Shown piece by piece: positions 5,689 to 38,643 of a stretch of 39,417 nt of DNA. Under the pieces are notes generated by a model that saw only the letters and a program-made list of their open reading frames with translations, did no database searches and was not told the DNA's origin. Numbering within the stretch: position 1 is the stretch's first letter; the number at the start of each line of letters is the position of its first letter. The DNA is from Deltaproteobacteria bacterium (GTDB lineage: Bacteria; Desulfobacterota; Syntrophorhabdia; Syntrophorhabdales; Syntrophorhabdaceae): NCBI GenBank assembly GCA_029777945.1, contig JAKORG010000096.1, forward strand, positions 1 to 39,417, written 5' to 3'. The translations under genes and the position numbers were made by a program.

Positions 5689-5704
5689 TGGTATAAATTT
5701 TGCA
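5689..5704 (+). promoter_or_regulatory. Sigma-54 (-24/-12) promoter for the muramidase-motAB genes
   Basis: TGGTATAAATTTTGCA has exactly ten bases between GG (5690-5691) and GC (5702-5703). It is almost the same as the element driving the Hdr operon at 25409-25424 (TGGTATAAACATTGCA). The predicted transcription start is about 5715, two bases before the ATG at 5717, so the message would be nearly leaderless. Confidence 0.72.
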
Positions 5705-17053: not shown

Positions 17054-17071
17054 TTGTGAATTTTTTCATAA
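17054..17071. promoter_or_regulatory. Rex-like operator upstream of the pyrophosphatase gene
   Basis: TTGTGAATTTTTTCATAA matches the widespread Rex operator TTGTGAA-N4-TTCACAA at 13 of 14 defined positions. It ends five bases before the -35 box of the pyrophosphatase promoter. A rex gene is present in this window at 38002-38643. The match suggests NADH/NAD+-dependent control of the pyrophosphatase. Confidence 0.5.
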
Positions 17072-23749: not shown

Positions 23750-25117
23750 TCACGTTTTATTATATTCTTTTTCTATCTGTTCAAGTCTGCTGTATAGTTT
23801 TTTTCTGCTGATACCTAATATTCGGGCAGCCTTGCTTTTATTCCCTCCTACAGAATCTAATACACTTCTAATATGTTCAGTCTCTAATCTTGCAAGGGTA
23901 GAATCCATTTTTTTATTTGTTATATCCATTACTACTGTCTGACCATAATTTGAATAAAAGATCGCATCAGGAAGATCCTCCGGTAATATCTCCATCCTGT
24001 CAGTACTTATAAGACATGCCCTTTCTATCACATTTGCAAGCTCCCTTACATTTCCAGGCCAGTGGTACGCCTTTAATAATTCCATTACCCTTTCGGAAAG
24101 AATTTTCTTTTTGCCTGGCCTTGCGAACTTTGCAAGAAAATATTCTGCCAAAGGAGGTATGTCCTCTTTTTTTTCCCTAAGAGGTGGAAGATGTATAACA
24201 AAAGCATTCATTCTAAAAAAAAGGTCTTTTCTGAATTTCCCCTCTTTTATCTCATAAGTCAGGTCTTTATTCGTAGCAAATATAAATCGAATATTTACCT
24301 TTGTCTCTTTTGTGTCACCTAATTTTAAAAAGGTTCCGTTTTCAAGCACCCTTAAAAGTTTTGCCTGGATGGCAGGGCTCATATCCCCAATTTCATCCAC
24401 AAAAAATGTGCCTTCATTGGCTATCTCAAGAAGGCCAGGCTTATTCGTATGAGCACCTGTGAAGGCACCCTTTTTATATCCAAAAAGCTCACTTTCGAGC
24501 ATGGATTCCTGAAGGGCGCTGGAATTTATGGCAACAAAAGGATTTGATGCCCTTGGGCTTAGGCTGTGGATTGCCCTTGCGGCAAGTTCTTTTCCTGTGC
24601 CTGTTTCACCCTGGATAAGCACAGGTGTATCAGACGGTGCAACAAGGGATATTAAATCCTTAACCCTTTGCATCTGTTTGCTGTTGCCCACGAATTGATC
24701 CTGGATGCTGAGCCTCTGGATATGTTCTTTGAGGAGTATATTTTTATCCTTCAAGGACTTCTTCTCATAAGCCTTTAATATTATGGTGGATAGCTCTGAA
24801 GTTTTGCACGGCTTTGTAAGGTAATCATAGGCCCCAAGTTTCATAGATTTTATTGCCGTATCCACAGAGGCATACCCTGTCAACATCACAATTTCAATTG
24901 TAGGCTCATACTGTTTTATCTTGGAGAACAATTCAATGCCATCAATATCCGGTAATTTTATGTCAAGGACTGCCACATCAAAATCATTTTCCTCCACCCT
25001 TTTTAAGGCCTCTTCTCCAGATGTGGCAATGGTTATGTCCATATTCTCTTTTGATAGTTGTTTTTTAAAGGCCTGGGCCAACTGTATTTCATCGTCTACA
25101 ATTAAGACCCTTATCAT
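23750..25117 (-). CDS. Sigma-54-dependent response regulator next to the Hdr/Etf operon
   Basis: A 455-residue NtrC/AtoC-type activator. The receiver domain has D9, phospho-acceptor D52 and K99. The AAA+ domain has GETGTGKE at 167-174 and the sigma-54 loop GAFTGA at 214-219. A Fis-type helix-turn-helix lies near 426-447 (NKSKAARILGISRKKLYSRL). No histidine kinase is adjacent. It is divergent from the Hdr/Etf operon, and both have good -24/-12 promoters with two shared 17-bp palindromes between them. It is therefore the natural candidate activator of the operon and of its own gene; that is inference from layout. The PAS hybrid kinase at 9327-11651 is too far away to be assigned as partner. Confidence 0.9.
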   Translation of the reverse strand: MIRVLIVDDEIQLAQAFKKQLSKENMDITIATSGEEALKRVEENDFDVAVLDIKLPDIDGIELFSKIKQYEPTIEIVMLTGYASVDTAIKSMKLGAYDYLTKPCKTSELSTIILKAYEKKSLKDKNILLKEHIQRLSIQDQFVGNSKQMQRVKDLISLVAPSDTPVLIQGETGTGKELAARAIHSLSPRASNPFVAINSSALQESMLESELFGYKKGAFTGAHTNKPGLLEIANEGTFFVDEIGDMSPAIQAKLLRVLENGTFLKLGDTKETKVNIRFIFATNKDLTYEIKEGKFRKDLFFRMNAFVIHLPPLREKKEDIPPLAEYFLAKFARPGKKKILSERVMELLKAYHWPGNVRELANVIERACLISTDRMEILPEDLPDAIFYSNYGQTVVMDITNKKMDSTLARLETEHIRSVLDSVGGNKSKAARILGISRKKLYSRLEQIEKEYNKT

Positions 25118-25408: not shown

Positions 25409-25424
25409 TGGTATAAACATTGCA
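25409..25424 (+). promoter_or_regulatory. Sigma-54 (-24/-12) promoter for the Hdr/Etf operon
   Basis: TGGTATAAACATTGCA has ten bases between GG (25410-25411) and GC (25422-25423). It differs by only two bases from the element before the muramidase-motAB genes. The predicted start is about 25435, leaving a 50-base leader before the first ATG (25485). Confidence 0.8.
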
Positions 25425-25484: not shown

Positions 25485-26579
25485 ATGCAAGATGAGGCAG
25501 CAAGTCGTGTGCTGGTTTGTATCCAGTGTGGAAAATGCACAGGCGGTTGTCCTGAATCCGGAAGGACACCTTTTAATATAAGAATGCTCGTTAGAAAAAG
25601 ATAATTTAATTATGCCATAGATGAATCCATGCCATGGTATTGCACTGCCTGTAATGCCTGCACGATTCGCTGCCCCAGGGATGTAAAACCATCAGAGATG
25701 ATTATAGAAATTAGGTCTTCATTGGTTGAAAACGGGGATATCCCTTTGGCAATTCAAAAGGCCCTTGAAAATACCTTTGTCCAGAAAAATCCATGGGGTA
25801 AGCCGAGGTCTAAAAGGGGTGAATGGGTGGAAAAATTAGATTTTAAGGTCCCCCACATATCAGAAACCAAGCACAAAAGACTCTTGTTTTTGTGTTGTGT
25901 CCACGCCTATGATCCCAGGTGTATGATAATACCTGTAAATGTGGCCCAACTATTGAATAAAGCAGGTTATGAATTCGGTATTCTTGGTGAAGAGGAGTGC
26001 TGCTGCGGTAACGAGATAAGAAGAATAGGCGAACTCGGATTGTTCGAAGAATTGATGGAAGAGAATAAGGCAAATTTTAAAGAATACGGTGTAGAAGAGA
26101 TAATAGCCCTTTCACCACACTGCATGAATACCTTAAAAAATGAATACGGAGATATGGGTATAAAGGTTATGCATTACACAGAGGTTTTGTCAAACCTCAT
26201 TAAAGAAGGTCTATTAAAGCCTGAAAAAACCTTTGAAAAGGAGTTAATCTATCACGACCCGTGTTTTTTAGGAAAGCAAAATAAAATCTTTGAACAACCA
26301 AGAGAGATTTTAAACAACATAAACAATGTAAAACTCAAAGAATTTTCCAGGTCAAGGGAGATATCCCTTTGTTGTGAAGGTGGTGGTGGAAGGATGTTTT
26401 TTGAGGTAGAGGCCCAATACAAAAGAAACAGTGAAACCAGGGTGGAAGAGGCGCAGGAAAAAGGCGCAGAGGTTATAACCACTGCCTGTCCTTTTTGTGT
26501 AATGACCCTTGAAGAAAAGGCAGTTGAAAAAGGGCTTGCAGTAAAAGAATTATCCGAGATATTGATGGAGGTGATATAA
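25485..26579 (+). pseudogene. HdrC-HdrB (HdrD-like) iron-sulfur oxidoreductase, interrupted by an in-frame TAA
   Basis: The intact form would be a 364-residue soluble fusion of HdrC and HdrB, which passes electrons from Etf or HdrA to a disulfide or other acceptor. Codons 1-39 (ATG at 25485 after AAGGGG) carry the first [4Fe-4S] motif CIQCGKCTGGCP. Codon 40 is TAA (25602-25604). The same frame then continues with FNYAIDESMPWYCTACNACTIRCP, the second [4Fe-4S] motif, and two CCG domains: CC...C, ECCCGNE, SPHCMNTL and DPCFLG, SLCCEGGGG, CPFCVMTL. A restart at ATG 25629 would give a 316-residue protein lacking one cluster, with only a weak ribosome site. A point mutation, a sequence error or a genuinely split gene are all possible. 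It is coupled to etfB one base downstream. Confidence 0.75.
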
Positions 26580-26580
26580 T

Positions 26581-27357
26581 ATGGATATTCTCGTATTTGT
26601 AAAAAGGGTTGCAGCAACCCAGGAAGAAGAATTAAGGATTATAGATGATGGTAAAAATATTGACCTTTCCAAGATCCCTTTCAAGATGAACGACTGGGAC
26701 AACTATGCTGTGGAAGAGGCAGTAAAGATAGTGGAAGATAAGGGAGGTTCTGTTACTGCCATATCAATAGGAAGTGGAGAATCTGATGAGGTCTTAAGAA
26801 GGGCAATAGCAATGGGCTCAAAAGATGGTATTTTAATAGAGTCAAATGAGACGATTCACGACCCGGCGCTTAGGGCACTGGCAATATATAATTTCATTAA
26901 AAAAGAGAATATGCAATTTGATGCAATTTTTACAGGTGTTCAATCAGAAGATGACCAATTTGCCGCAACAGGTGGATTTTTGGCAGGTAAAATGGGCCTT
27001 TCTTATGCATCTATGGTAATAGGCATAGATGCCATTGAAAATGGATATTTTGTTTTAAGAAGGGAACTCGAAGGCGGGCTTCAAGAAAGAATAAAGATAA
27101 AGACACCCTGTGTCTTGTCAATTCAGAGCGGCATAAACGAGCCGAGATATGTATCCATTATGGGCATAAGAAAGGCATCCAAGGTAGAAAGAAAGATAAT
27201 GAAATTCAATGATTATGCAGGAAGTGGAGATGCTGTTATAGATTTAATCAGGTGGTCTTATCCTGAGAAAAAGGGAGGGGCAACAATGCTGACCGGAGAA
27301 GTGGATGCTCAATGTAAAGAACTTTTGGAAATCCTTAAAAATAAGGGGGTGTACTGA
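26581..27357 (+). CDS. etfB: Electron transfer flavoprotein beta subunit
   Basis: A 258-residue EtfB/FixA-type subunit: N-terminal MDILVFVKRV, MNDWDNYAVEEA (36-47) in the nucleotide/flavin region, TGVQSEDDQFAATGGFLAGKMG, and a C-terminal arm. It dimerises with EtfA and, in the bifurcating members of the family, its flavin splits electron pairs between high- and low-potential acceptors. Whether this one bifurcates cannot be decided from the motifs I can read. It starts one base after the HdrCB gene and its last base is the first base of etfA, so translation is coupled. An Hdr-like iron-sulfur protein directly before etfBA is a known arrangement in syntrophs. Confidence 0.94.
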   Translation: MDILVFVKRVAATQEEELRIIDDGKNIDLSKIPFKMNDWDNYAVEEAVKIVEDKGGSVTAISIGSGESDEVLRRAIAMGSKDGILIESNETIHDPALRALAIYNFIKKENMQFDAIFTGVQSEDDQFAATGGFLAGKMGLSYASMVIGIDAIENGYFVLRRELEGGLQERIKIKTPCVLSIQSGINEPRYVSIMGIRKASKVERKIMKFNDYAGSGDAVIDLIRWSYPEKKGGATMLTGEVDAQCKELLEILKNKGVY

Positions 27358-28298
27358 TGGGTTACGCACTAATTATCTCTGAAGTAAGGCGCGGTGTTTT
27401 CGAGGAAAGAAACCTCGATGCCATAGGAATTGCAAACCTTGCAGGAAAAGATGCATATCTTCTTATCCCAGAAGGCAACTATAATATAAACGGCAATATG
27501 GTGGATAAAATAATAAAGGTAAAAACAGAAGAATCTATGTTTTTAAATCCTTTGATAATAACCGGGTTAATCACAAAAATTATGGATTCTTCAGCCTCAC
27601 CTGAAATGGTGATCTTTACCCATTCTTCATCAGGTATAGAGATGGCAAGTTATCTGGCAGGCAAGATGGGTCTCCCAATCATAACAGATATAAGCGGTTA
27701 TGAAAAAAACGGGGACATTTTCTTTAAAAGCTACTATTCGGATAAGGTCTTTGGTCAGTTCAAAAAAACAAAAGAAAGCCCTTTAATTCTAACAGTTAGA
27801 AGCGGTAGCTTTAAAGATTTTGCAACAGATAAGGGGAAACAGGCAGAAGAAACAACAGTAGAAGGTCTTTCGGGCATCGAGGAAAGAAGCTTTATAGAGT
27901 ATGTTGAGGAAGAAAAGACAGGGGTTGATATCACAAAGGCAGAGTTTCTTCTCTCCCTCGGTAGAGGTGTCGGCAACAAAGACGAGATACCGAAATTTGA
28001 AGAGCTTGCCCAACTCTTGAAGGCAACCATATCCGGTTCAAGACCAGTAGTGGATAAGCAATGGTTGCCTAAAGAAAGACAGGTTGGAACATCGGGGAAG
28101 ACTGTAAAACCAAAGGTTTATCTTGCCATGGGAATTTCAGGGGCATTCCAGCATATTGCAGGTATGAAAGACTCGGAATGCATCATAGCAGTCAATAAAG
28201 ACCCTGAAGCACCTATCTTTCAATATGCCCACTACGGGATTGTAGGAGACGCAAATAAGATAAGGGATAAATTAAAAGACATAATCCAAGGTGGATAA
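27357..28298 (+). CDS. etfA: Electron transfer flavoprotein alpha subunit
   Basis: A 313-residue EtfA/FixB-type subunit carrying FAD. The C-terminal FAD-binding signature is clear: [19 protein letters not shown] (226-244), [25 protein letters not shown] (246-270) and [19 protein letters not shown] (280-298). There is no N-terminal ferredoxin extension of the kind seen in some anaerobe EtfA proteins. It overlaps etfB by one base and is followed after 14 bp by the HdrA-GltD fusion, so Etf probably docks on the Hdr module encoded in the same operon. Confidence 0.95.
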
Positions 28299-28312: not shown

Positions 28313-31030
28313 ATGCAAGGGGAGCAGAGAGAAATAGAAAAAAGGGTCCTTGTCGTGGGAGGTGGTATAGGAGGGATTACCGCTGCCCTTGAACTTGCAG
28401 GATGTGGTGTAAAGGTAACCATGCTGGAAGAGACATCTTCCATAGGCGGGAGGATGATACAACTCGATAAGACCTTTCCCACCCTTGATTGTTCCACATG
28501 CACCCTTTCTCCTAAGATGGTGGAGGTGGCCTTAAATAAAAATATAGAACTTATCTCTCTGGCAAAACCCATAGGTATAAAAAAGAACGGCAAGGGTTTT
28601 AAGGTTACCATATTTAAAAAGGCAAGGTTTGTGGATGTGAAAAAGTGCACTGCCTGTGGCACGTGTTTTGCTGGTTGCCCTGTTGTCATGAAAAGCGAAT
28701 TTAACATGGGTATAGGTGAAAGAAAGGCAATATATATCCCCTTCCCCCAGGCAATACCCAATAAGGCCACAATAGATAAAAGGGAAGAAAGACCCTGCCA
28801 CGCTGCCTGCATTGATGCATGCCCCATAAATACCAATGTAGCTGGTTATCTTAGACTTATAAGGGACGGCAGATTTAAGGATGCCTATCTACTCATAAGG
28901 TCCACAAACCCGTTACCCTCTGTATGTGGAAGGGTATGTTATGCACCTTGTGAAGGTGTATGTAACAGGGGACAACTCGATGCCCCTCTTGCCATAAGGG
29001 ACTTAAAAAGATTTGCCGTTGATTCCTTCAATATCGATGAACTACCCATCCCTCAGGTCCAGAAAACGGACAAAAAAGTAGCCATAATAGGCGCAGGCCC
29101 TTCAGGCCTTGCATGTGCCCATGACCTTGCACTGGAAGGTCATAGTGTCACCATCTTTGAGGCACAACCTGAACCAGGTGGGATGTTAAGATATGCCATA
29201 CCTGAATATAGGCTTCCCAAAGATGAACTCCGTAAAGAAATCGACTACATAAAAAGGCTCGGCGTTGAAATTAAATGCAATAAAGAGGTGGGAAGGGATA
29301 TCACCTTCCTTGACATAAAAAACTCATTTGATGCAGTCTTTATAGGGGTAGGTGCCAGAAAAGGGGTAAACCTAAATATTGATGGTGAAGACCTAAAAGG
29401 AGTAATAGACGGCATCAGATTTTTAAGAATGGTCAACATGGGAGAAAAGATAGAACTCGGCAATGTGGTTGCAGTTATAGGTGGTGGCAACACGGCCATT
29501 GACTGTGCAAGAACAGCCCTTAGATTAGGCTCAAAAGAAGTCAAGGTCATATACAGAAGAACACAGGCAGAAATGCCTGCAGCCCATGAGGAAGTGGAGG
29601 CATTGATTAAAGAGGGGATTGTCATAGAGTTTCTCACAACACCAAAAAGGTTTATTTCAGAAAATGGCGCATTAAAAAAGATGGAATGTATAAGGATGGA
29701 ACTCGGTGAACCAGACTCATCTGGAAGGAGGAGGCCCGTAGAGATACCTGGTTCTGAATTTACCATTGATGTAGATACAGTAATCACGGCCCTTGGACAG
29801 AGACCGGAGACAGACTTTCTAAAAGACAGCATTAATCTCGGAAAAGACAGCACTATTAAGATAGATACAAAGACAGGGATGACGTCATTAGAAGGTGTCT
29901 TTGCCGGAGGCGATGCAGTCACAGGACCGGCATATGTAATAGATGCCATTGCTGCAGGAAAAAAGGCTGCCATTAACATTTCGAGGTATCTTAAGGGAGA
30001 GCCGCCTTATGAATTCGAAACATGTAAGGCCCCAAAATCCCTTACGGAAAAAGAGGTATCTCAATTAAAAGAAAAATACGGCACTGCCTCCCGTATTTAT
30101 GTAAAAGAAAAAGATGTGTCTCAGAGGATTAAAGATTTTAGCGAAGTTGTTATAGGTTATGACAGAGATAATGCCATATTAGAGGCATCAAGATGCCTTG
30201 CCAGTATGATCGAAGGTTGTATTGAATGCGGTGAATGCAAGAGGAGATGTGAAGCAGGTGCAGTAGACTATCAGATGAAAGATGAAGTGGTGGAGATGGA
30301 TTTTGACGGAATAGTAATAGCGCCTGGTTTTGATCTTTACGACCCAACAGAAAAGAAAGAATTGGGATACAAAAGATTAAAAGGTGTGATGACAGGCATT
30401 GAATTCGAACGTTTAAGCTCTGTTACAGGGCCCACCGGTGGAGAAATACTCTTTAACGGCAAAGTGCCTAAAAGATTTTATTTTATCCAGTGTGTTGGCT
30501 CACGGGATAGACAGACCGGTGCAAGATATTGTTCAAGGGTCTGCTGTATGTATACGGCCAAACATGCAAGTATAGTAAAGGACAGGATTAAGGATGCCAC
30601 AGTCTATATCTCATATATAGACGTAAGGGCCTATGGTAAAGGTTATGAAGAATTCTATAAAAGCACCCAAGAGGCAGGCGTCAAATACATTAGAGGCATT
30701 CCTGGTGAGATAGTAGAAGGTAAAAACGGTCTTATTGTAAGGGTGGAGGATATGTTAAGCGGCGAATTAAACGAGGTGGAGGTAGATCTTGTTATTCTTG
30801 CCACAGGGGTGAGACCAAAGGCACATATAAAAGAACTGGCAGAAATCATGTCATTGGCACTGGATGAATACGGTTTTGTAAAGGTCGACCCTGTTAATCC
30901 TTCTAAAACAAGCACCGATGGTATATTCGTATGTGGCATGGGCTCAGGCCCAAAAGACATACCCGATACAGTGGCATCAGCAGGTGAGGCTGCCTCTGCC
31001 TGTATGGAATATATAAAGGCGGATTTATGA
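28313..31030 (+). CDS. HdrA with an inserted GltD-type NAD(P)H oxidoreductase domain
   Basis: A 905-residue flavin/iron-sulfur protein of unusual design. Residues 10-125 are the first part of HdrA: VVGGGIGGITAALELAG, DCSTCTLSPKMVEV and the cluster motif CTACGTCFAGCP at 112-122. Residues 158-565 are a complete GltD-like domain: PCHAACIDACP, CGRVCYAPCEGVC, VAIIGAGPSGLACAHDLA, AVIGGGNTAIDCARTA (387-402), YRRTQAEMPA (414-423) and FAGGDAVTGPAYVIDAI. Residues 625-650 hold another cluster motif (CIECGECKRRC), and the rest is the second half of HdrA with CVGSRDRQTGARYCSRVCCMYTA. GltD uses NADPH to feed electrons through FAD and Fe-S clusters, so this subunit probably supplies NAD(P)H electrons to, or takes them from, the Hdr complex. 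It overlaps the next hdrA by four bases. Confidence 0.88.
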   Translation: MQGEQREIEKRVLVVGGGIGGITAALELAGCGVKVTMLEETSSIGGRMIQLDKTFPTLDCSTCTLSPKMVEVALNKNIELISLAKPIGIKKNGKGFKVTIFKKARFVDVKKCTACGTCFAGCPVVMKSEFNMGIGERKAIYIPFPQAIPNKATIDKREERPCHAACIDACPINTNVAGYLRLIRDGRFKDAYLLIRSTNPLPSVCGRVCYAPCEGVCNRGQLDAPLAIRDLKRFAVDSFNIDELPIPQVQKTDKKVAIIGAGPSGLACAHDLALEGHSVTIFEAQPEPGGMLRYAIPEYRLPKDELRKEIDYIKRLGVEIKCNKEVGRDITFLDIKNSFDAVFIGVGARKGVNLNIDGEDLKGVIDGIRFLRMVNMGEKIELGNVVAVIGGGNTAIDCARTALRLGSKEVKVIYRRTQAEMPAAHEEVEALIKEGIVIEFLTTPKRFISENGALKKMECIRMELGEPDSSGRRRPVEIPGSEFTIDVDTVITALGQRPETDFLKDSINLGKDSTIKIDTKTGMTSLEGVFAGGDAVTGPAYVIDAIAAGKKAAINISRYLKGEPPYEFETCKAPKSLTEKEVSQLKEKYGTASRIYVKEKDVSQRIKDFSEVVIGYDRDNAILEASRCLASMIEGCIECGECKRRCEAGAVDYQMKDEVVEMDFDGIVIAPGFDLYDPTEKKELGYKRLKGVMTGIEFERLSSVTGPTGGEILFNGKVPKRFYFIQCVGSRDRQTGARYCSRVCCMYTAKHASIVKDRIKDATVYISYIDVRAYGKGYEEFYKSTQEAGVKYIRGIPGEIVEGKNGLIVRVEDMLSGELNEVEVDLVILATGVRPKAHIKELAEIMSLALDEYGFVKVDPVNPSKTSTDGIFVCGMGSGPKDIPDTVASAGEAASACMEYIKADL

Positions 31031-32700
31031 AAGCGGGTATATTTATCTGTCACTGCGGACATAACATAAAACATACAGTGGATGTAAGGCGTTTGAGCGA
31101 ATATTTTAAAAAGATACCAGGAGTGGAGGTTGCCATTGACTACGCCTTTGTCTGTTCAGAACCAGGGCAGGATATTATAAAAGAGAGTATTGAAAATAAA
31201 CATCTGGACAGGGTTGTAATAGCCTCATGCACCCCATCTCTGCATGGGGATCTCTTCAAGGACCTCCTTAAAAAATCAGGGATAAACCCGTTCTATTTAA
31301 GACGTGTAAGCATAAGGGAGCACTGTTCATGGGTCGGCGATGACATTGAAGCAAATACAGAGAAGGCAAAAAGACTCATACTTTCAGGGCTCTATTCTGC
31401 AAGTCACTATATTCCCCTTGAAGAAAAAATGGTTGAAGTGAATAAATCTGCCCTTGTAATAGGTGGCGGTGTCTCTGGATTGAATGCTGCACTGTTTCTG
31501 GCTAAGATGGGAATAAAGGTATATCTCGTGGAGAGAGAAGAAGAATTAGGTGGTCATGTAAGACTTTTAAACAGTGTATGGCCGTCTAAAAGAAGTGGCA
31601 GAGAAATAGTAGCAGAGATGGTAGACGAATTAAATAGGCTTGCCAATGTAGACATATATACGAATACAACTATTACGAATTTTGAAGGTTTCTTCGGCAA
31701 TTATCAGGTAACATTAAAAAAGGGCGAAGATGAAAAGAAAATCATTGTTGGCGGAGTAGTTGTGGCAACAGGCTTTGTTCCCTTTGACCCTTCTATAAAG
31801 CCTGAATTGCATTACAATAAAGACAAAAGGATAGTCACTACCCTTGACCTTGAAAAAGGTTTAGAAACCCTTGAAATCTCTAAAAAACCTCGGGTAGCAA
31901 TACTCCATTGTATTGGCTCCAGAGATGAAACAATAGGGAAGTCCTATTGTTCGAGGATCTGTTGTATAAATGCCATAAAAACAGCAGAGGCATTAAAAGA
32001 AAAATATCCCGAATCCTATATAGAATCATTCTATATGGATGTAAGGGCCCATCCTAAAGGAGGGGAAGAATATTTTGAATCTGTCCAGGAAAAGGGTGTG
32101 CTCTTTACAAGGGGGAATGTGGCAGAGATAATACCCACTGATAAGAGTATAATAATCAGAGGAGAGGATACGCTTTTAGGAGAAGTTTACGAGAAGGAGT
32201 TCGACCTTGTCGTTTTATCAATAGGCATGTCATCCCCGGTGGAAAATAAAGCATTGGGCCAATTATTAAAGATATCCCTTGACAAGGATGGTTTTTTTCT
32301 CGAGGCACACATAAAGCTAAGACCGTTTGATACTGCGGTAAAGGGGATATTTATAGCAGGTTCATGCTCTGGACCCAAAGATGCCGAAGAATCCATTAAT
32401 CACGGAAAGGCTTCTGCCCTGAAACTTTTTGGTATGTTAAACCTCGGTTATACATTTGTTGATCCCTTTATATCCTATGTAGACCCCAAAAGGTGCAGTG
32501 GTTGCCGACAGTGTGAAGAGGCATGCATAGCCAAGGCTATAAAATTCGATGAAAAATTGAGGATTGTAAAGGTGGAAGAGGCTGCCTGTATGGGATGTGG
32601 TCTATGTAATGCCACATGTCCATCATCGGCCATATCATTGAAAGGATATTTCGACAGTTATATATCCGACGAGATAAGTGGACTTCTTGAGATAGCATAA
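31027..32700 (+). CDS. hdrA: HdrA-like flavoprotein, second copy, with two C-terminal ferredoxin motifs
   Basis: A 557-residue HdrA. The N-terminal domain (1-135) has GIFICHCGHNI and VIASCTPSLHG. The FAD domain starts at LVIGGGVSGLNAALFLA (about 142-158), and the flavin-proximal cysteines are in CIGSRDETIGKSYCSRICC. The C-terminal pair of [4Fe-4S] motifs is CSGCRQCEEAC and CMGCGLCNATCP. HdrA carries the FAD that bifurcates electrons between ferredoxin and the HdrBC disulfide site. It lacks the inserted ferredoxin of methanogen HdrA and complements the upstream HdrA-GltD, which has no N-terminal domain or C-terminal ferredoxin. The two may pair as an HdrA heterodimer. It is followed 22 bp later by mvhD. 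Confidence 0.92.
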   Translation: MKAGIFICHCGHNIKHTVDVRRLSEYFKKIPGVEVAIDYAFVCSEPGQDIIKESIENKHLDRVVIASCTPSLHGDLFKDLLKKSGINPFYLRRVSIREHCSWVGDDIEANTEKAKRLILSGLYSASHYIPLEEKMVEVNKSALVIGGGVSGLNAALFLAKMGIKVYLVEREEELGGHVRLLNSVWPSKRSGREIVAEMVDELNRLANVDIYTNTTITNFEGFFGNYQVTLKKGEDEKKIIVGGVVVATGFVPFDPSIKPELHYNKDKRIVTTLDLEKGLETLEISKKPRVAILHCIGSRDETIGKSYCSRICCINAIKTAEALKEKYPESYIESFYMDVRAHPKGGEEYFESVQEKGVLFTRGNVAEIIPTDKSIIIRGEDTLLGEVYEKEFDLVVLSIGMSSPVENKALGQLLKISLDKDGFFLEAHIKLRPFDTAVKGIFIAGSCSGPKDAEESINHGKASALKLFGMLNLGYTFVDPFISYVDPKRCSGCRQCEEACIAKAIKFDEKLRIVKVEEAACMGCGLCNATCPSSAISLKGYFDSYISDEISGLLEIA

Positions 32701-32722: not shown

Positions 32723-33139
32723 ATGTCTGATAAAACAGAAAGAGAACCTGAAATAGTTGGCTTTGCCTGTTCTTATTGCACATTTAAGGCATCGGAAATG
32801 GCAGGCAGTCTCAGAATGAAATATCCGGAAAAGGTAAGGGTAATACAGGTGCCCTGTTCCAGTAGGGTTGATCCTGCCTTTGTAATAAAGGCTATTTTTG
32901 AAGGTGCAGATGGGGTGTTTGTCTCGGGCTGCCATCCAGGCGATTGTCACTTCATCAAAGGAAATTACTATACCAGGAGAAAGATGGCTGCATTGAAAGA
33001 GATGTTTAAGGCATTCTCCATGGACGGAAAGGTAAAACTCTTCTGGATTAGCGCAGCAGAGGCAAGGAGATTTATAGAAAAGATAACGAATATGTATAAC
33101 GAATTAAGGGAAGAGAAAAATGCAGGGAAAAAAAATTGA
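32723..33139 (+). CDS. mvhD: MvhD-like [2Fe-2S] electron-transfer subunit
   Basis: A 138-residue MvhD-type protein (methyl-viologen-reducing hydrogenase delta subunit family), which hands electrons to the HdrA flavin. The family cysteines are present: C16 and C19 in FACSYCTF, C45 in VPCSSRVD, and C70 and C75 in SGCHPGDCHF. It has an AGGAGG ribosome site. No MvhA or MvhG hydrogenase subunits are nearby, so the electrons must come from another partner, presumably the FrhB-like subunit encoded next, whose gene overlaps this one by 20 bases. Confidence 0.93.
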   Translation: MSDKTEREPEIVGFACSYCTFKASEMAGSLRMKYPEKVRVIQVPCSSRVDPAFVIKAIFEGADGVFVSGCHPGDCHFIKGNYYTRRKMAALKEMFKAFSMDGKVKLFWISAAEARRFIEKITNMYNELREEKNAGKKN

Positions 33140-34133
33140 TAAGGAAAAGCTAAGGGTTGCATTAAACAGGTTTGTGGAAAAACAAAACCAGATTGTATAC
33201 GGTTACGGAAAAAACGGCATTTTCATTACACACAAAATATATACAGATCATGTGGAAGACCTTTCCCTTTTCAATCCTTATTTTGGTATAAACGGTGCGA
33301 CCTTTTTTTACAGGGTCTTCAGCAAGGATATAAAGGTGGTGATGCTACTTAGGCCTTGTGAGATCAGGGCAATGATTGAACTTGTAAAATTAAACCAGAT
33401 AGAACCTGAAACAATAACCATGATATCTACAGACTGTCCAGGCACTGTCTCCCTAAAAAAGGCCAAAGCAGACCTGCCCGATGATTTTTTAGAGATACAA
33501 AAGGCAGCTGAGAAAGATGATGGCGGATTGAGATGGGCATGTAAATTCTGCAGGGAAAAAAGAGGCGTTTTTGGAGATGCAGGTATAAGGGTCCAAGAAG
33601 ACGGTGGCATGTGGATATTCCCATATACAGATAAAGGTAGCGATTTTTTAAACTTAATAGACGAAGAATTAGTTGAATATACAGGTAAATTCGTTATTTT
33701 AGAAAGCATGAAGACAGAACCTTTTGTTACTGATATGGATACATTCCATAAAGATTTTTCAAAATGTATCCTCTGTAAGAACTGTAGAGATATGTGCCCT
33801 GTATGCTACTGTGTGGATTGCCTGTTCAATGGAGACGAATATCTGCCAAAGGGTGACGCATTTATAAATAAGATGTTAAGAACAGGCACAGAAAACCTTC
33901 CATACGGAAAAGAAATCTTCCACATGATAAGGATGTATCATGTTTCTCAGACATGTGTAGGTTGTGGGGCGTGCGAAGAAGCATGTCCCCAGGATATCCC
34001 CATTACCAAATATTTTAAAGGTATATCTGAGAGACTGCAGAATCTCTTCTCCTATATGTCAGGAAGAGATGTAAAGGAAACGATACCATATCTAACATTT
34101 AAAGAGGATGAGCTAAAAGATACAGAAGATTGA
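33120..34133 (+). CDS. FrhB/FdhB-like iron-sulfur flavoprotein subunit
   Basis: A 337-residue protein related to the beta subunits of coenzyme F420 hydrogenase and of formate dehydrogenase. Residues 60-150 contain VVMLLRPCEIRAMI (C80), STDCPG (C106) and CKFC (C141, C144). Residues 216-234 carry a cysteine-rich cluster motif (CILCKNCRDMCPVCYCVDC), and CVGCGACEEACP at 279-290 binds a second [4Fe-4S] cluster. Relatives hold FAD and connect a nicotinamide or F420 site to Fe-S carriers. It starts inside mvhD (20-base overlap, ribosome site AGGGAAGAG), which argues for a tight MvhD-FrhB-like contact. No formate dehydrogenase or hydrogenase catalytic subunit accompanies it, so its electron donor is unknown. 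Confidence 0.85.
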   Translation: MQGKKIDKEKLRVALNRFVEKQNQIVYGYGKNGIFITHKIYTDHVEDLSLFNPYFGINGATFFYRVFSKDIKVVMLLRPCEIRAMIELVKLNQIEPETITMISTDCPGTVSLKKAKADLPDDFLEIQKAAEKDDGGLRWACKFCREKRGVFGDAGIRVQEDGGMWIFPYTDKGSDFLNLIDEELVEYTGKFVILESMKTEPFVTDMDTFHKDFSKCILCKNCRDMCPVCYCVDCLFNGDEYLPKGDAFINKMLRTGTENLPYGKEIFHMIRMYHVSQTCVGCGACEEACPQDIPITKYFKGISERLQNLFSYMSGRDVKETIPYLTFKEDELKDTED

Positions 34134-34134
34134 T

Positions 34135-34584
34135 ATGGAAAAGATAATAGCATATACTGGTTACAAGAAAAAAGATTTTTCCGCATGTTTGGGCTGTAAG
34201 ATATGTGCCTCTGTCTGCACATTAAACGATTTCTCCATGCATGCAAACCCACAAGGTCTTCTTCTGAAAATACTTTTAGGTGATAACACAATTACCGATG
34301 ATCCCCTTATAAAAAATTGTGTAAGCTGCTACAGGTGCACTGATGCATGCCCCTGGCAGATAAGGGTGCCTGAAGTGGTAAGGGCAATAAGAGAGACTTT
34401 GGAACTGTCCTCTCCCTTTGAAAAGGCCTTTAAAGGTTCCATTTCTATCTGGGGAAGGGTTTATGAACCATATATATTTATGAATGCCATAGGCTTTCTT
34501 ATAAAAAACGGATACTTAAAACATCTTATGAAATGGACAGAGTATATAAGCTTTCATTTACCACATAAAATAAAAAGGATTTGA
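34135..34584 (+). CDS. hdrC: HdrC-like iron-sulfur subunit
   Basis: A 149-residue HdrC with the two expected [4Fe-4S] motifs, CLGCKICASVC (about 19-29) and CVSCYRCTDACP (about 62-73), followed by a helical tail with a hydrophobic, aromatic stretch (YEPYIFMNAIGFLI). HdrC wires the HdrA flavin to the catalytic HdrB. It starts one base after the FrhB-like gene and stops three bases before hdrB. It is the second HdrC in the operon, the first being the broken N-terminal part of HdrCB. Confidence 0.92.
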   Translation: MEKIIAYTGYKKKDFSACLGCKICASVCTLNDFSMHANPQGLLLKILLGDNTITDDPLIKNCVSCYRCTDACPWQIRVPEVVRAIRETLELSSPFEKAFKGSISIWGRVYEPYIFMNAIGFLIKNGYLKHLMKWTEYISFHLPHKIKRI

Positions 34585-34587
34585 GAT

Positions 34588-35265
34588 ATGGAATACAGTT
34601 ATTACCCGGGTTGTTCTCTAACTGGTTCTGCAAAAAGGCTTGATATGGCTACAAGAAAAATACTTTTAACCCTTGGCTACACGATAAAGGAAATACCTGA
34701 ATGGAACTGTTGCGGTGCCGTAGAATACGGTAACAAAGAAGAGCTTATAAGGCTATCCCGAGAAAATCTCAAAAAGGCAGAGGCAGTATCTAAAACCATT
34801 ATAGCCCCCTGTCCTGCCTGTTATAGAAATCTGAAAGAATCTAATAGAGATGGCGATTTTAATATCTATAATCCCCTTGATATGTTCAATGTAGCAGACA
34901 TTAACAAACTGGAGATAAAAAAAGATCTAAAAAAAATGGTCTTTACGCCTTATTATGGTTGTGTGCTTCTAAGACCAAAGGAAACGGCCATTAAAAACAG
35001 AAATATAATTGAAGAGATAATAACAAATTTCGGTGGAGAAATAGACGGTGAAAAAATAAGAGACAGATGCTGCGGAGGGAATCTCTTCTTTTCCAATAAA
35101 GAGATGACAGAAAAATGTGTAAATCTCATTGCATCGAGGTCAAAGGGTATATTTGTAGTTTATTGTCCCCTATGCCATATGGCACTGAACACCTTTTCTA
35201 ACAGAAAGGTCGTATATATTACAAACATAATACTATATATGCTGGGAGAAAGAAAAAATATATGA
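34588..35265 (+). CDS. hdrB: HdrB-like subunit with two CCG domains (short form)
   Basis: A 225-residue HdrB, shorter than typical HdrB proteins of about 290 residues. Both CCG cluster-binding domains are still complete: YYPGC, WNCCGAVEYG and APCPACYRNL in the first, then YYGC, DRCCGGNLFF and YCPLCHMAL in the second. In methanogen Hdr these bind two non-cubane [4Fe-4S] clusters that cleave the heterodisulfide; in bacteria the true substrate is mostly unknown. The shortening lies in the linker between domains and in the loops. Its stop overlaps the start of the third hdrA by four bases. Confidence 0.92.
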   Translation: MEYSYYPGCSLTGSAKRLDMATRKILLTLGYTIKEIPEWNCCGAVEYGNKEELIRLSRENLKKAEAVSKTIIAPCPACYRNLKESNRDGDFNIYNPLDMFNVADINKLEIKKDLKKMVFTPYYGCVLLRPKETAIKNRNIIEEIITNFGGEIDGEKIRDRCCGGNLFFSNKEMTEKCVNLIASRSKGIFVVYCPLCHMALNTFSNRKVVYITNIILYMLGERKNI

Positions 35266-37010
35266 ATGTACTTATAATCGGTGGTGGAATTAGTGGTATC
35301 TCTGCGGCAAAGGTCCTTCTCAAAGAAGGCCACAGGGTTACAATAGTAGAATCTACAGAAGATTTGGGCGGCCTTATGGCAAAAATAGCCAATTGCCGTG
35401 TAGGTTTTAAAACCTTTTTTGATGAAATCCATGATAGAAGAAACCTCACCATCATAAAAGGAAAAAATATAGAACACGTAGAAAAAAATAATGATGGGAT
35501 TTATAAGGTAAGGATAGAAAAAGAAGGGGAAATAGAGGCAGAAAAGGTAATCATAGCAACAGGGCTTATGCCCTATGACCCTGTTGAAATAAAAGGAAAA
35601 AGGATCTTAACGAGCCTTGAATACGATTCTATAATCGACCAGAAAAAGGAGAAAATGCCTGAAGATTTTAATAAAATCGCCTTTATCCTCTGTGTGGGAT
35701 CAAGGTCGAAAGAATATCCCCTCTGTTCATCAGTGTGTTGCTCTTATACAATAAGGGAAATAAAATGGACCCTTATGAGGTCAAACCCTGAGATAACGGT
35801 CTTTTATAATGATTTAAGATTATTCGGACAGGAGTTCTTTCTCGAAAGAATGTTCAGGGAAAGGGGGGTTCGCTTTATCAGAACAAATACGAGATATTTT
35901 GAGGAAGACGAAAATGGTGTAACAATAAGATTTTACATAGACGGTGAAATCAAAGAAGAAAGGTTTAATTATGCTGTACTCGCTATAGGGTTGAGGCCAA
36001 ATCAAAGCCTCATCAACTTGTCACGACTATTCGGTTTTTCCCTTAATAACCATGGATTTGTATATGAAACAGCACCCCTTACCGCAGTAGATGGAAAAAT
36101 CTACATATGCGGAGGGGCAATAGAACCCATGAACATAAAGGACTCAATCCTTACCGGTTTTGGTGCAGGACTACTCGCTTCCATGGGAAAAGATAAGATT
36201 AACGATTTCTTAAAACACCATGAAAGATATCTTTACAAAGAAAGGGAGCCAGAATTCATTATAGACAAAGATGCCAGTTCATACCTTTTCTACATAGGAG
36301 CAGATGATACCTTTTCTTCCATGTTCTATGAATATGCCTCCAGCAGATTTGTGAAAATTGCAAAAGAACTCATAGGTTTAGGCAAAAAGGTTTATGTAAT
36401 AACAAAAAACCTTGTAGTACCATCGTATGGTGAAATAGAATACGAGCTCATAAAAGAAGAAGGAGTTATTTTTATTAACCTTGAGGAAGGGGAATACCTG
36501 GAAACAAAAGATGGCAAGGTAGTTATTACAGGGGGGAAAAGAGAACTATCCTTTAATGTGGATAGGATGGTCTTCATGGAGGATCTCATATCAGGGCATA
36601 AAACAAAAGAGTTTCTTTCCTTTTACAGGTCAGAACCACAACTGAGGTGGTCACCTACAAAATGGAACAGAGAAAGGTTCCATATTGGATTCATAAGACA
36701 TCCAAGGGCAGAAAGATGGGAAGGAAGAGAAATCATAGGTGCACTGGCAGAAATTTTACTCGATAAAGAAGAAGAAAGGGTAATCCCTGAGGTGAACGAA
36801 GAAAGGTGCAGCGGCTGTGGTTCATGCAAAAATGCCTGTCCCCATAATGCCATTGAGATTACTCAAGTCCCAAAAGATGTGGCCATCTTCGGCCTTTTAA
36901 GTAATACTTTAAATCCTGTGGCAAAGATAAACTCAGACCTGTGCATGGGCTGTGGTCTATGTGCCTCCACATGCCCATCTGATGTAATAAATTTACCCAC
37001 TGCCCAGTAA
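35262..37010 (+). CDS. HdrA-like flavoprotein, third copy, with extra domain
   Basis: A 582-residue HdrA relative. It opens directly with the FAD motif (MNVLIIGGGISGISAAKVLL), so it lacks the N-terminal HdrA domain. It keeps the flavin-proximal cysteines (CVGSRSKEYPLCSSVCC) and ends with two ferredoxin motifs, CSGCGSCKNACP and CMGCGLCASTCP. Between the flavin domain and the ferredoxins (about 325-500) lies an extra region (YLFYIGADDTFSSMFYEYASSRFVKIAKE...) that I do not recognise. QmoA-like or HdrA-like naming would both be defensible. It is the last gene of the operon; its final codons and stop lie within a 42-bp tandem duplication. Confidence 0.85.
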   Translation: MNVLIIGGGISGISAAKVLLKEGHRVTIVESTEDLGGLMAKIANCRVGFKTFFDEIHDRRNLTIIKGKNIEHVEKNNDGIYKVRIEKEGEIEAEKVIIATGLMPYDPVEIKGKRILTSLEYDSIIDQKKEKMPEDFNKIAFILCVGSRSKEYPLCSSVCCSYTIREIKWTLMRSNPEITVFYNDLRLFGQEFFLERMFRERGVRFIRTNTRYFEEDENGVTIRFYIDGEIKEERFNYAVLAIGLRPNQSLINLSRLFGFSLNNHGFVYETAPLTAVDGKIYICGGAIEPMNIKDSILTGFGAGLLASMGKDKINDFLKHHERYLYKEREPEFIIDKDASSYLFYIGADDTFSSMFYEYASSRFVKIAKELIGLGKKVYVITKNLVVPSYGEIEYELIKEEGVIFINLEEGEYLETKDGKVVITGGKRELSFNVDRMVFMEDLISGHKTKEFLSFYRSEPQLRWSPTKWNRERFHIGFIRHPRAERWEGREIIGALAEILLDKEEERVIPEVNEERCSGCGSCKNACPHNAIEITQVPKDVAIFGLLSNTLNPVAKINSDLCMGCGLCASTCPSDVINLPTAQ

Positions 37011-38001: not shown

Positions 38002-38643
38002 CTAATTGGTTAGATAATAAACAAGATTGTCAAGGGCAGATGTGAAAAAGAGATTTCTTACCTTTACGTGTTCCGGCGCACTCACCGGTGCCGGTGATAG
38101 GTTTAGAATGCCTTTAATATTGGCATCTACAAGCTGGTTCGCCACCTTTTGTGCCTCTGATGGTGGCACTGTTATGATGCCAATTTCTATATTTCTCGCC
38201 TCTATCACCTCTTTTAATCTACTTACATGGAGGATCTCAACAGGCCTACCCATCCTTTCTGATATATTTCCTATCACCTTAATGGGGTCTATATCAAAGG
38301 CAGCCACTATCCTATAATTCTGTTTTAAAAAATCTTTATATACAAGGAGGGCGCTCCCGAGATTTCCTATACCCACAACTGCAATCCTCCATTCCCTGTC
38401 TATACCCAAAATCTTCCTGATGTGATTTTTGAGTTCCCCTATGTTGTAGCCCATACCCCTTATACCGAATTCACCGAAATAGGCAAAATCCTTTCTAACC
38501 TGGGCAGGGTTTACATTACATAGATTGGCGAGGGTTGTGCTGGATGCAACCTTTTCGTTCTTTGATTCCAGCTCTTCAAGACACTTCAGGTAATTCGATA
38601 ACCTTCTTATAGTCGCTTCAGGTATCTTTGAGTATTTAGCCAT
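38002..38643 (-). CDS. rex: Redox-sensing transcriptional repressor Rex
   Basis: A 213-residue Rex. The N-terminal winged helix (about 5-80) contains NPAQVRKDFAYFGEFGIRGMGY, the family's DNA-contacting segment, and the Rossmann domain has VVGIGNLGSAL (90-100). Rex senses the NADH/NAD+ ratio and leaves its operators when NADH is high, releasing fermentation and energy genes. A candidate Rex operator lies before hppA at 17054-17071 in this window. AGGTGG precedes the ATG. The gene is followed closely by the DUF350-like gene and bioD. Confidence 0.95.
   Translation of the reverse strand: MAKYSKIPEATIRRLSNYLKCLEELESKNEKVASSTTLANLCNVNPAQVRKDFAYFGEFGIRGMGYNIGELKNHIRKILGIDREWRIAVVGIGNLGSALLVYKDFLKQNYRIVAAFDIDPIKVIGNISERMGRPVEILHVSRLKEVIEARNIEIGIITVPPSEAQKVANQLVDANIKGILNLSPAPVSAPEHVKVRNLFFTSALDNLVYYLTN

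Follow-up and report, generated by a model that had tools for sequence, protein, structure and literature searches.

A StnC-type GltD module inside the ferredoxin domain of an HdrA flavoprotein encoded in an Etf-linked Hdr operon

Architecture and features of hdrL

We analyzed a stretch of 39,417 nucleotides (nt), in the following called the window, from a Syntrophorhabdaceae bacterium (order Syntrophorhabdales; assembly GCA_029777945.1, contig JAKORG010000096.1, positions 1 to 39,417). At 28313-31030 its plus strand holds a single uninterrupted open reading frame (ORF) of 905 amino acids (aa), which encodes an HdrA flavoprotein split by a GltD-like domain and which we refer to as hdrL. A minus-strand reading of the locus was ruled out by the many stops in the opposite frame. 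The gene, its parts and the residues used below are the following, with flavin adenine dinucleotide abbreviated as FAD and iron-sulfur as Fe-S.

28313..31030, +, hdrL, HdrA-GltD-HdrA, 905 aa (ORF reading, domain and PDB sequence searches, AlphaFold2)
28313..28783, +, HdrA N-terminal half, residues 1-157 (aligned to 5odc_A 142-291; invariant in relatives)
within 28313..28783, +, FAD Rossmann motif, C63 (= Cys197 of methanogen HdrA) and first cluster motif C112/C115/C118/C122 (5odc_A alignment)
28784..30211, +, GltD-like insert, residues 158-633 (PRK12771, E 1.4e-163; StnC/NfnABC structural match)
29006..29008, +, K232, position of StnC K170 (alignment; PMC10482914)
29084..29107, +, GltD FAD motif, residues 258-265, IIGAGPSG (alignment)
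29474..29497, +, GltD NAD(P) motif, residues 388-395, VIGGGNTA (alignment)
29552..29560, +, Y414-R415-R416, predicted 2'-phosphate (NADPH) site (alignment)
30212..31027, +, HdrA C-terminal half, residues 634-905 (aligned to 5odc_A 291-560)
within 30212..31027, +, second cluster motif C636/C639/C642/C646 (5odc_A alignment)
within 30212..31027, +, FAD-proximal cluster C727/C740/C744/C745, K750 (= K409) and E699 (= E356) (5odc_A alignment, conservation)

In Pfam/NCBIfam and PDB sequence searches of the ORF, HdrA matches cover residues 6-157 and 634-903 (approximate limits), and a GltD/PRK12771 match covers residues 163-665 (E 1.4e-163). This bears out the original prediction, made from the sequence alone, of an HdrA divided by a GltD-type domain; the limits it gave for the two halves (10-125 and 650-905) were off and are corrected by alignment to 1-157 and 634-905. 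On HdrA of M. thermolithotrophicus (5odc_A), residues 8-157 align to 142-291 and residues 634-896 to 291-560, i.e., the two halves abut, and therefore zero HdrA residues are lost at the junction. The match of residues 159-643 is to the large subunits of NfnABC and Stn, in their GltD part. Within the inserted ferredoxin domain of HdrA, the insert separates the two [4Fe-4S] motifs, an arrangement that characterizes HdrL and type III HdrA. The N-terminal Fe-S domain and the C-terminal ferredoxin of a complete type I HdrA are missing from the 905-aa chain and are found instead in the adjacent 557-aa HdrA.

An AlphaFold2 model of HdrL, built from 60 sequences, reached a mean predicted local distance difference test (pLDDT) score of 90.9 and a predicted template modelling (pTM) score of 0.85. 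In the model, residues 8-905 minus the insert superpose on M. marburgensis HdrA (420 residues, 1.5 Å, Z 51.5). Residues 158-646 superpose on NfnABC (9bov; 477 residues, 1.9 Å, Z 48.5) as well as on StnC (8oh5; 475 residues, 1.9 Å, Z 47.5). Structure prediction, proposed earlier as a check on the insert, thus places each part on its expected counterpart. Residues 634-646, which hold the second ferredoxin cluster, are common to the HdrA and the StnC/NfnABC matches, and this cluster would therefore be the natural joint between the two modules.

Cofactor residues and nucleotide

Cofactor positions were assessed in alignments of 10 close relatives, 31 orthologues (the operon group), 60 HdrL rows (the wider family) and 24 long forms. 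The GltD cofactor motifs are present and invariant across the 10 close relatives, and all 60 HdrL rows share the FAD glycines G260, G262 and G265 as well as C162, C170, C209, C213, C217 and C628. Together with the fold match, this agrees with the earlier claim of a full GltD segment with FAD, NAD(P) and Fe-S sites of its own. On the HdrA side, the FAD-proximal cluster (C386/C399/C403/C404 in HdrA) and its K409 and E356 are retained as C727/C740/C744/C745, K750 and E699.

The closest parallel to the GltD sites is StnC, whose GltD-like domain binds NADPH and holds a non-bifurcating FAD (PMC10482914). StnC K170 is a lysine ligand of the flavin-proximal [4Fe-4S] cluster, where NfnB has a glutamate (PMC10482914); the corresponding K232 of HdrL is a lysine in 31/31 sequences of the operon group and 51/60 of the wider set. 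Furthermore, R300 aligns with NfnB R201, which contacts FAD N5 and is kept in StnC, too (PMC10482914). HdrL hence combines all features of a StnC-type NADPH module, i.e., FAD and NADP(H) Rossmann motifs, Arg-Arg, the N5-side Arg and the Lys in place of Glu. C631, present in the wider family including 24/24 long forms, is lost in the operon group (0/31), which has gained C166 (31/31, compared to 0/24 in long forms). Assigning cluster ligands by homology, this is apparently a lineage-specific ligand exchange that leaves the ligand count intact. The StnC-like nucleotide and cluster residues predict NADP(H) use and a non-bifurcating GltD flavin.

As for the nucleotide, Y414-R415-R416 is what we take to be the usual NADPH arrangement in the GltD family. 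Arg-Arg is found at R415/R416 in 31/31 sequences of the operon group and 44-45/60 of the wider family, while 13/60 carry Leu-Glu in its place (e.g., L088 from Desulfotruncus arcticus, L092, L105, L120) and may form an NADH-using subfamily. That the module of the window protein uses NADH, as was proposed for type III HdrA from a GXGXXG motif (PMC12054007), is unlikely in our view: the Leu-Glu of the 13 sequences is indeed an NADH-type signature, but Arg-Arg is present in all 31 sampled orthologues, the window protein among them, the window motif reads GGGNTA, and StnC, which binds NADPH, and NADP(H)-bound NfnI are arranged in the same way. NADPH, which the original prediction had already preferred, is thus the likely nucleotide as far as sequence motifs tell. 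The published GXGXXG argument may have been drawn from the FAD motif; in our sample, 57/60 HdrL have Ala as the last residue of the NAD(P) motif.

The Etf-Hdr operon

The gene hdrL is the fourth of ten genes on the plus strand, the other nine being

25485..26579, +, HdrC/HdrB-like (TfrB-like) Fe-S CCG protein, first gene (domain searches)
26581..27357, +, EtfB (domain search; closest solved relative Methylophilus W3A1 ETF)
27357..28298, +, EtfA (domain search; closest solved relative Methylophilus W3A1 ETF)
31027..32700, +, second HdrA, 557 aa (domain search, alignment)
32723..33139, +, MvhD/FlpD (PF02662, E 3.7e-43)
33120..34133, +, FdhB/FrhB-like Fe-S protein, 337 aa (profile match to methanogen FdhB, E 2e-28)
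34135..34584, +, HdrC-like (domain search)
34588..35265, +, HdrB-like, two CCG domains (domain search)
35262..37010, +, third HdrA-like flavoprotein with C-terminal ferredoxin, 582 aa (domain search; operon marker)

The order, i.e., HdrCB-like CCG protein-EtfB-EtfA-hdrL-second HdrA-MvhD-FdhB-like-HdrC-HdrB-third HdrA-like, is identical across the complete operons examined. Both EtfB and EtfA have W3A1 ETF as their best PDB match. W3A1 ETF is non-bifurcating, and this may hold for the EtfAB of the operon as well. Domain searches of the ten genes yielded no NfnA-like (PyrK-like, 2Fe-2S, FAD) partner. The source genome contains seven acyl-CoA dehydrogenase hits, dsrA and dsrC.

The second HdrA, whose start overlaps hdrL by 4 nt, retains the N-terminal Fe-S domain and the C-terminal ferredoxin and is without Cys197 and without the inserted ferredoxin domain. 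HdrL shows the complementary pattern, i.e., it is without the N-terminal HdrA domain and keeps C63 (= Cys197). The second HdrA has the N-terminal domain and is without Cys197 in 33/33 operons. Such complementary distribution of Cys197 and N-terminal domain has been read as a sign of an HdrA heterodimer (PMC9012536), and the 557-aa protein is accordingly the predicted partner of HdrL.

An Etf-Hdr cluster without GltD was also seen outside the phylum, in a Firmicutes metagenome-assembled genome (L135, 117-7588: HdrCB-EtfBA-HdrA(type I)-MvhD-FdhB-like-HydB-like).

Distribution and GltD-less form

We screened 46 genomes of the order, among which 32 have the GltD-bearing gene at this locus, nine have the gene without GltD and five lack the operon gene in their assembly. 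The nine GltD-less genes, in which one HdrA half follows directly on the other, encode about 428-445 aa (one of them, in G025, is split over two contigs and that of G034 contains a TAG). Genus g4 contains both states. In the GltD-less genes, the type I ferredoxin motif CLFxSxGKCxxxCxxxC is retained at the place where the insert of GltD-bearing genes ends with a GltD-type motif (RCL..GCIECGECxxxC). That is, the change amounts to about 20 residues being replaced by GltD with its own Fe-S tail; the GltD-less form is probably the ancestral one. GltD-less operons have the same gene set and no extra NAD(P)H subunit. GltD as a substitute for a FlxA-like flavoprotein was therefore set aside, also because the 337-aa neighbour is FdhB-like.

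Within the phylum, 172/395 sampled genomes have a whole-fusion match at E <= 1e-140; the third HdrA-like gene, our operon marker, was found only within this order (17/395). A check of the individual domains, in line with the architecture search proposed earlier, confirmed the full HdrA-GltD-HdrA order at 59 loci from named organisms. Their labels include Desulfobacterota, Chloroflexota, Aminicenantes, Bacillota, Gemmatimonadota and archaea. Many of the HdrL are long forms of 1470-1500 aa (L049-L057, L059-L133) with a second HdrA fused C-terminally in the same chain. Several long-HdrL relatives in the phylum have one in-frame TGA, probably encoding selenocysteine. A 1022-aa protein encoded in the same genome as the window (L147, 6225-9290, minus strand) has a C-terminal GltD module 52% identical to the HdrL insert.

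To relate the two forms, we compared trees of the HdrA core with the tree of the eight other operon genes. On the latter, GltD presence needs at least four changes, and a single clade of GltD-bearing rows is rejected by the approximately unbiased (AU) test (p-AU 8e-88). In the HdrA-core mixture tree of the order, by contrast, GltD-bearing rows form one clade (100/100), which persists without the junction columns (100/98). The HdrA-core data reject a grouping of genus g4 (p-AU 0.001) and also a placement of G042 with its family members (p-AU 0.016); the groups tested were named after inspecting a first tree. Per-gene identities place G042 closer to its GltD-less family members in most flanking genes; in HdrA core and second HdrA, the window's lineage is the closer one. 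The simplest account of these sequence data would be one GltD gain, followed by exchange of the hdrL allele between operons. A caveat is a quick 54-row tree with distant HdrA, in which the GltD-bearing operon rows are not one clade; moreover, G042, G038 and G040 are long branches in these trees, and a signal like that of allele exchange could also come from adaptation to GltD shared among HdrA cores. Support for a single origin of the GltD form is good within the order and not secure for the long-branch G042.

Proposed electron path and alternatives

Our preferred reading, which we hold with a confidence slightly above even, is that an Etf-linked Hdr complex uses NADP(H) in place of ferredoxin on its low-potential branch, by way of the StnC-type GltD of HdrL. 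The inserted ferredoxin domain would be rebuilt around an NADP(H)-binding StnC/NfnABC-type GltD module, which therefore makes NADP(H) the likely low-potential partner. HdrL and the 557-aa HdrA would act as a heterodimer inside a soluble complex that also includes MvhD, the FdhB-like protein, two HdrBC-type modules and the probably non-bifurcating EtfAB. Between NADP(H) and the HdrA FAD, electrons would run in turn through the GltD FAD, the pair of [4Fe-4S] clusters in GltD (one of them Lys-ligated), both clusters of HdrA's inserted ferredoxin domain and the cluster of the partner's N-terminal domain. The sharing of the N-terminal cluster with the partner HdrA follows the HdrA structure described in PMC9012536. 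The original prediction had wired the nucleotide straight into the HdrA flavin; this part does not stand, since the module sits within the ferredoxin domain, from where its route to the flavin would lead over clusters.

The likeliest job of the complex would be to take electrons from acyl-CoA dehydrogenases, entering on the high-potential side via EtfAB and the first HdrCB-like protein, which lies beside EtfAB and is the likely link to acyl-CoA oxidation. Bi- or confurcation at the HdrA FAD would couple them to the low-potential side, where NADPH may be either oxidised or made; the GltD FAD itself is probably non-bifurcating.

Several points weigh against this reading. First, the initial operon gene is broken in this assembly by an in-frame TAA (25602-25604, codon 40; a Gln in the sister genome, where the gene is intact), which may be a genuine truncation that costs the protein one Fe-S motif, or else a mistake in the assembly. 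Second, the operon's EtfAB need not serve acyl-CoA dehydrogenases because the source genome has three other EtfA genes. Third, GltD is not essential to the core reaction because nine relatives run the same operon without it. Finally, the AlphaFold2 model carries no cofactors. Recoding of TAA, raised by an in-frame TAA flagged in dsrA, was rejected, the dsrA TAA being a normal stop.

Apart from NADH use, discussed above, the GltD FAD might be a second bifurcation site as in NfnAB, giving two bifurcating flavins per chain; this was proposed for ANME-1 HdrA9-11 (PMC9012536). Homology of GltD to NfnB and the alignment of R300 with the N5-contacting R201 are in its favor, but the ten operon genes offer no NfnA-like partner and the cluster ligand is Lys rather than Glu, like in StnC, whose GltD FAD is non-bifurcating despite the same Arg. 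We thus consider it improbable, and slightly more so than NADH use. Still less credible is an electron-inactive GltD with a structural or regulatory role: the module is dispensable in nine relatives and StnC retains an inactive FdhF domain (PMC10482914), but the positions for FAD, nucleotide and cluster ligands have been conserved among highly divergent sequences and the ligand change is apparently compensated (C166 gained, C631 lost). That the HdrA-GltD-HdrA order is an assembly chimera or sequencing artefact we rule out for practical purposes, since, even though the window stems from a draft genome of 102 contigs and a neighbouring gene is interrupted by a stop, the same continuous ORF and operon recur in dozens of independent assemblies and across many phyla (32/46 genomes of the order, 59 loci of named organisms and 172/395 phylum genomes).

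Building on the replacement of ferredoxin by NADP(H), the GltD-bearing and GltD-less forms may be interchangeable alleles of one gene in this conserved operon, exchanged by recombination between related bacteria, that let the same complex work with either ferredoxin or NADP(H) on its low-potential side. This extension is tentative, and we put it somewhat below even. If true, anaerobes change the currency of an electron-bifurcating machine through one gene swap. Operons with and without GltD in close relatives, even within one genus, are a natural pair for studying the role of GltD, and comparing both forms would directly test its redirection of the ferredoxin branch to NADP(H).

Relation to known systems

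The fusion is less unusual than the original prediction implied: it was named HdrL in 2009, has been described twice since and is common in the phylum. The 2009 protein from Desulfobacterium autotrophicum HRM2, a heterodisulfide reductase/glutamate synthase fusion (PMC2702500), shares the HdrA/GltD fusion, with a predicted NADH site and its gene next to mvhD. It is described as a large type; sampled HdrL of 1470-1500 aa carry the second HdrA in-chain, which here is a separate gene. A ten-gene Etf operon is not described for it in the accessible part of PMC2702500. ANME-1 HdrA9/10/11 (PMC9012536, 2022) have an NfnB-like insert of about 500 residues in the HdrA ferredoxin domain, with NADPH proposed; in contrast to our case, they are archaeal, their setting is described without EtfAB, and the insert was suggested to be an additional site of bifurcation. 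Type III HdrA (PMC12054007, 2025) likewise has GltD near the inserted ferredoxin domain, as a proposed ferredoxin replacement; GltD was inferred to have been inserted twice. That account covers nine archaeal sequences and proposes NADH, whereas Arg-Arg and GGGNTA point to NADPH here and the distribution is far wider. An HdrL-like protein is also discussed in a 2025 proteome paper (PMC12142623).

The closest solved homologues of the GltD module are StnC of the Sporomusa Stn transhydrogenase (PMC10482914, 8oh5) and NfnABC (9bov, 9n5u). Both share the Lys ligand position and the C-terminal Fe-S motif with the HdrL insert; however, their GltD is joined in fusion with a NuoG-like chain and supplies an FMN (flavin mononucleotide) module instead of HdrA. 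FlxABCD-HdrABC and MvhADG-HdrABC resemble the present complex in their HdrA-MvhD core with HdrBC, and there the nucleotide or H2 input is provided by separate subunits at the MvhD end. For MvhADG, this is described in PMC9012536.

The accessible published accounts of HdrA-GltD fusions, which propose both NADH and NADPH, contain no biochemical test, and our partial literature search found no paper linking NfnABC with HdrA. While the HdrA-GltD-HdrA architecture is not new (HdrL 2009, HdrA9-11 2022, type III HdrA 2025), the Etf-linked operon, the alleles with and without GltD, the StnC-type Lys signature, the ligand exchange, the Arg-Arg/Leu-Glu split and the wide bacterial distribution appear to be; given the partial search, prior mention is possible.

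Promoter-like site and regulator genes

Upstream of the operon we found one further feature.

25409..25424, +, sigma-54 -24/-12 promoter-like site TGGTATAAACATTGCA (exact match, upstream of operon)

This perfect sigma-54 site sits about 60 nt upstream of the first operon gene. The window has four canonical sites compared to 0.16 expected, others being at 2509-2524 and 5689-5704. A canonical match near the operon start is present in 8/19 orthologous operons (0.008 expected each). A Rex-type redox repressor gene (38002-38643, minus strand) lies downstream of the operon; a window search for Rex operators gave no match near the operon and one 3-mismatch match at 17054. Beside the operon, a gene for a sigma-54 response regulator (23750-25117, minus strand) is divergently oriented, as it is in several relatives.
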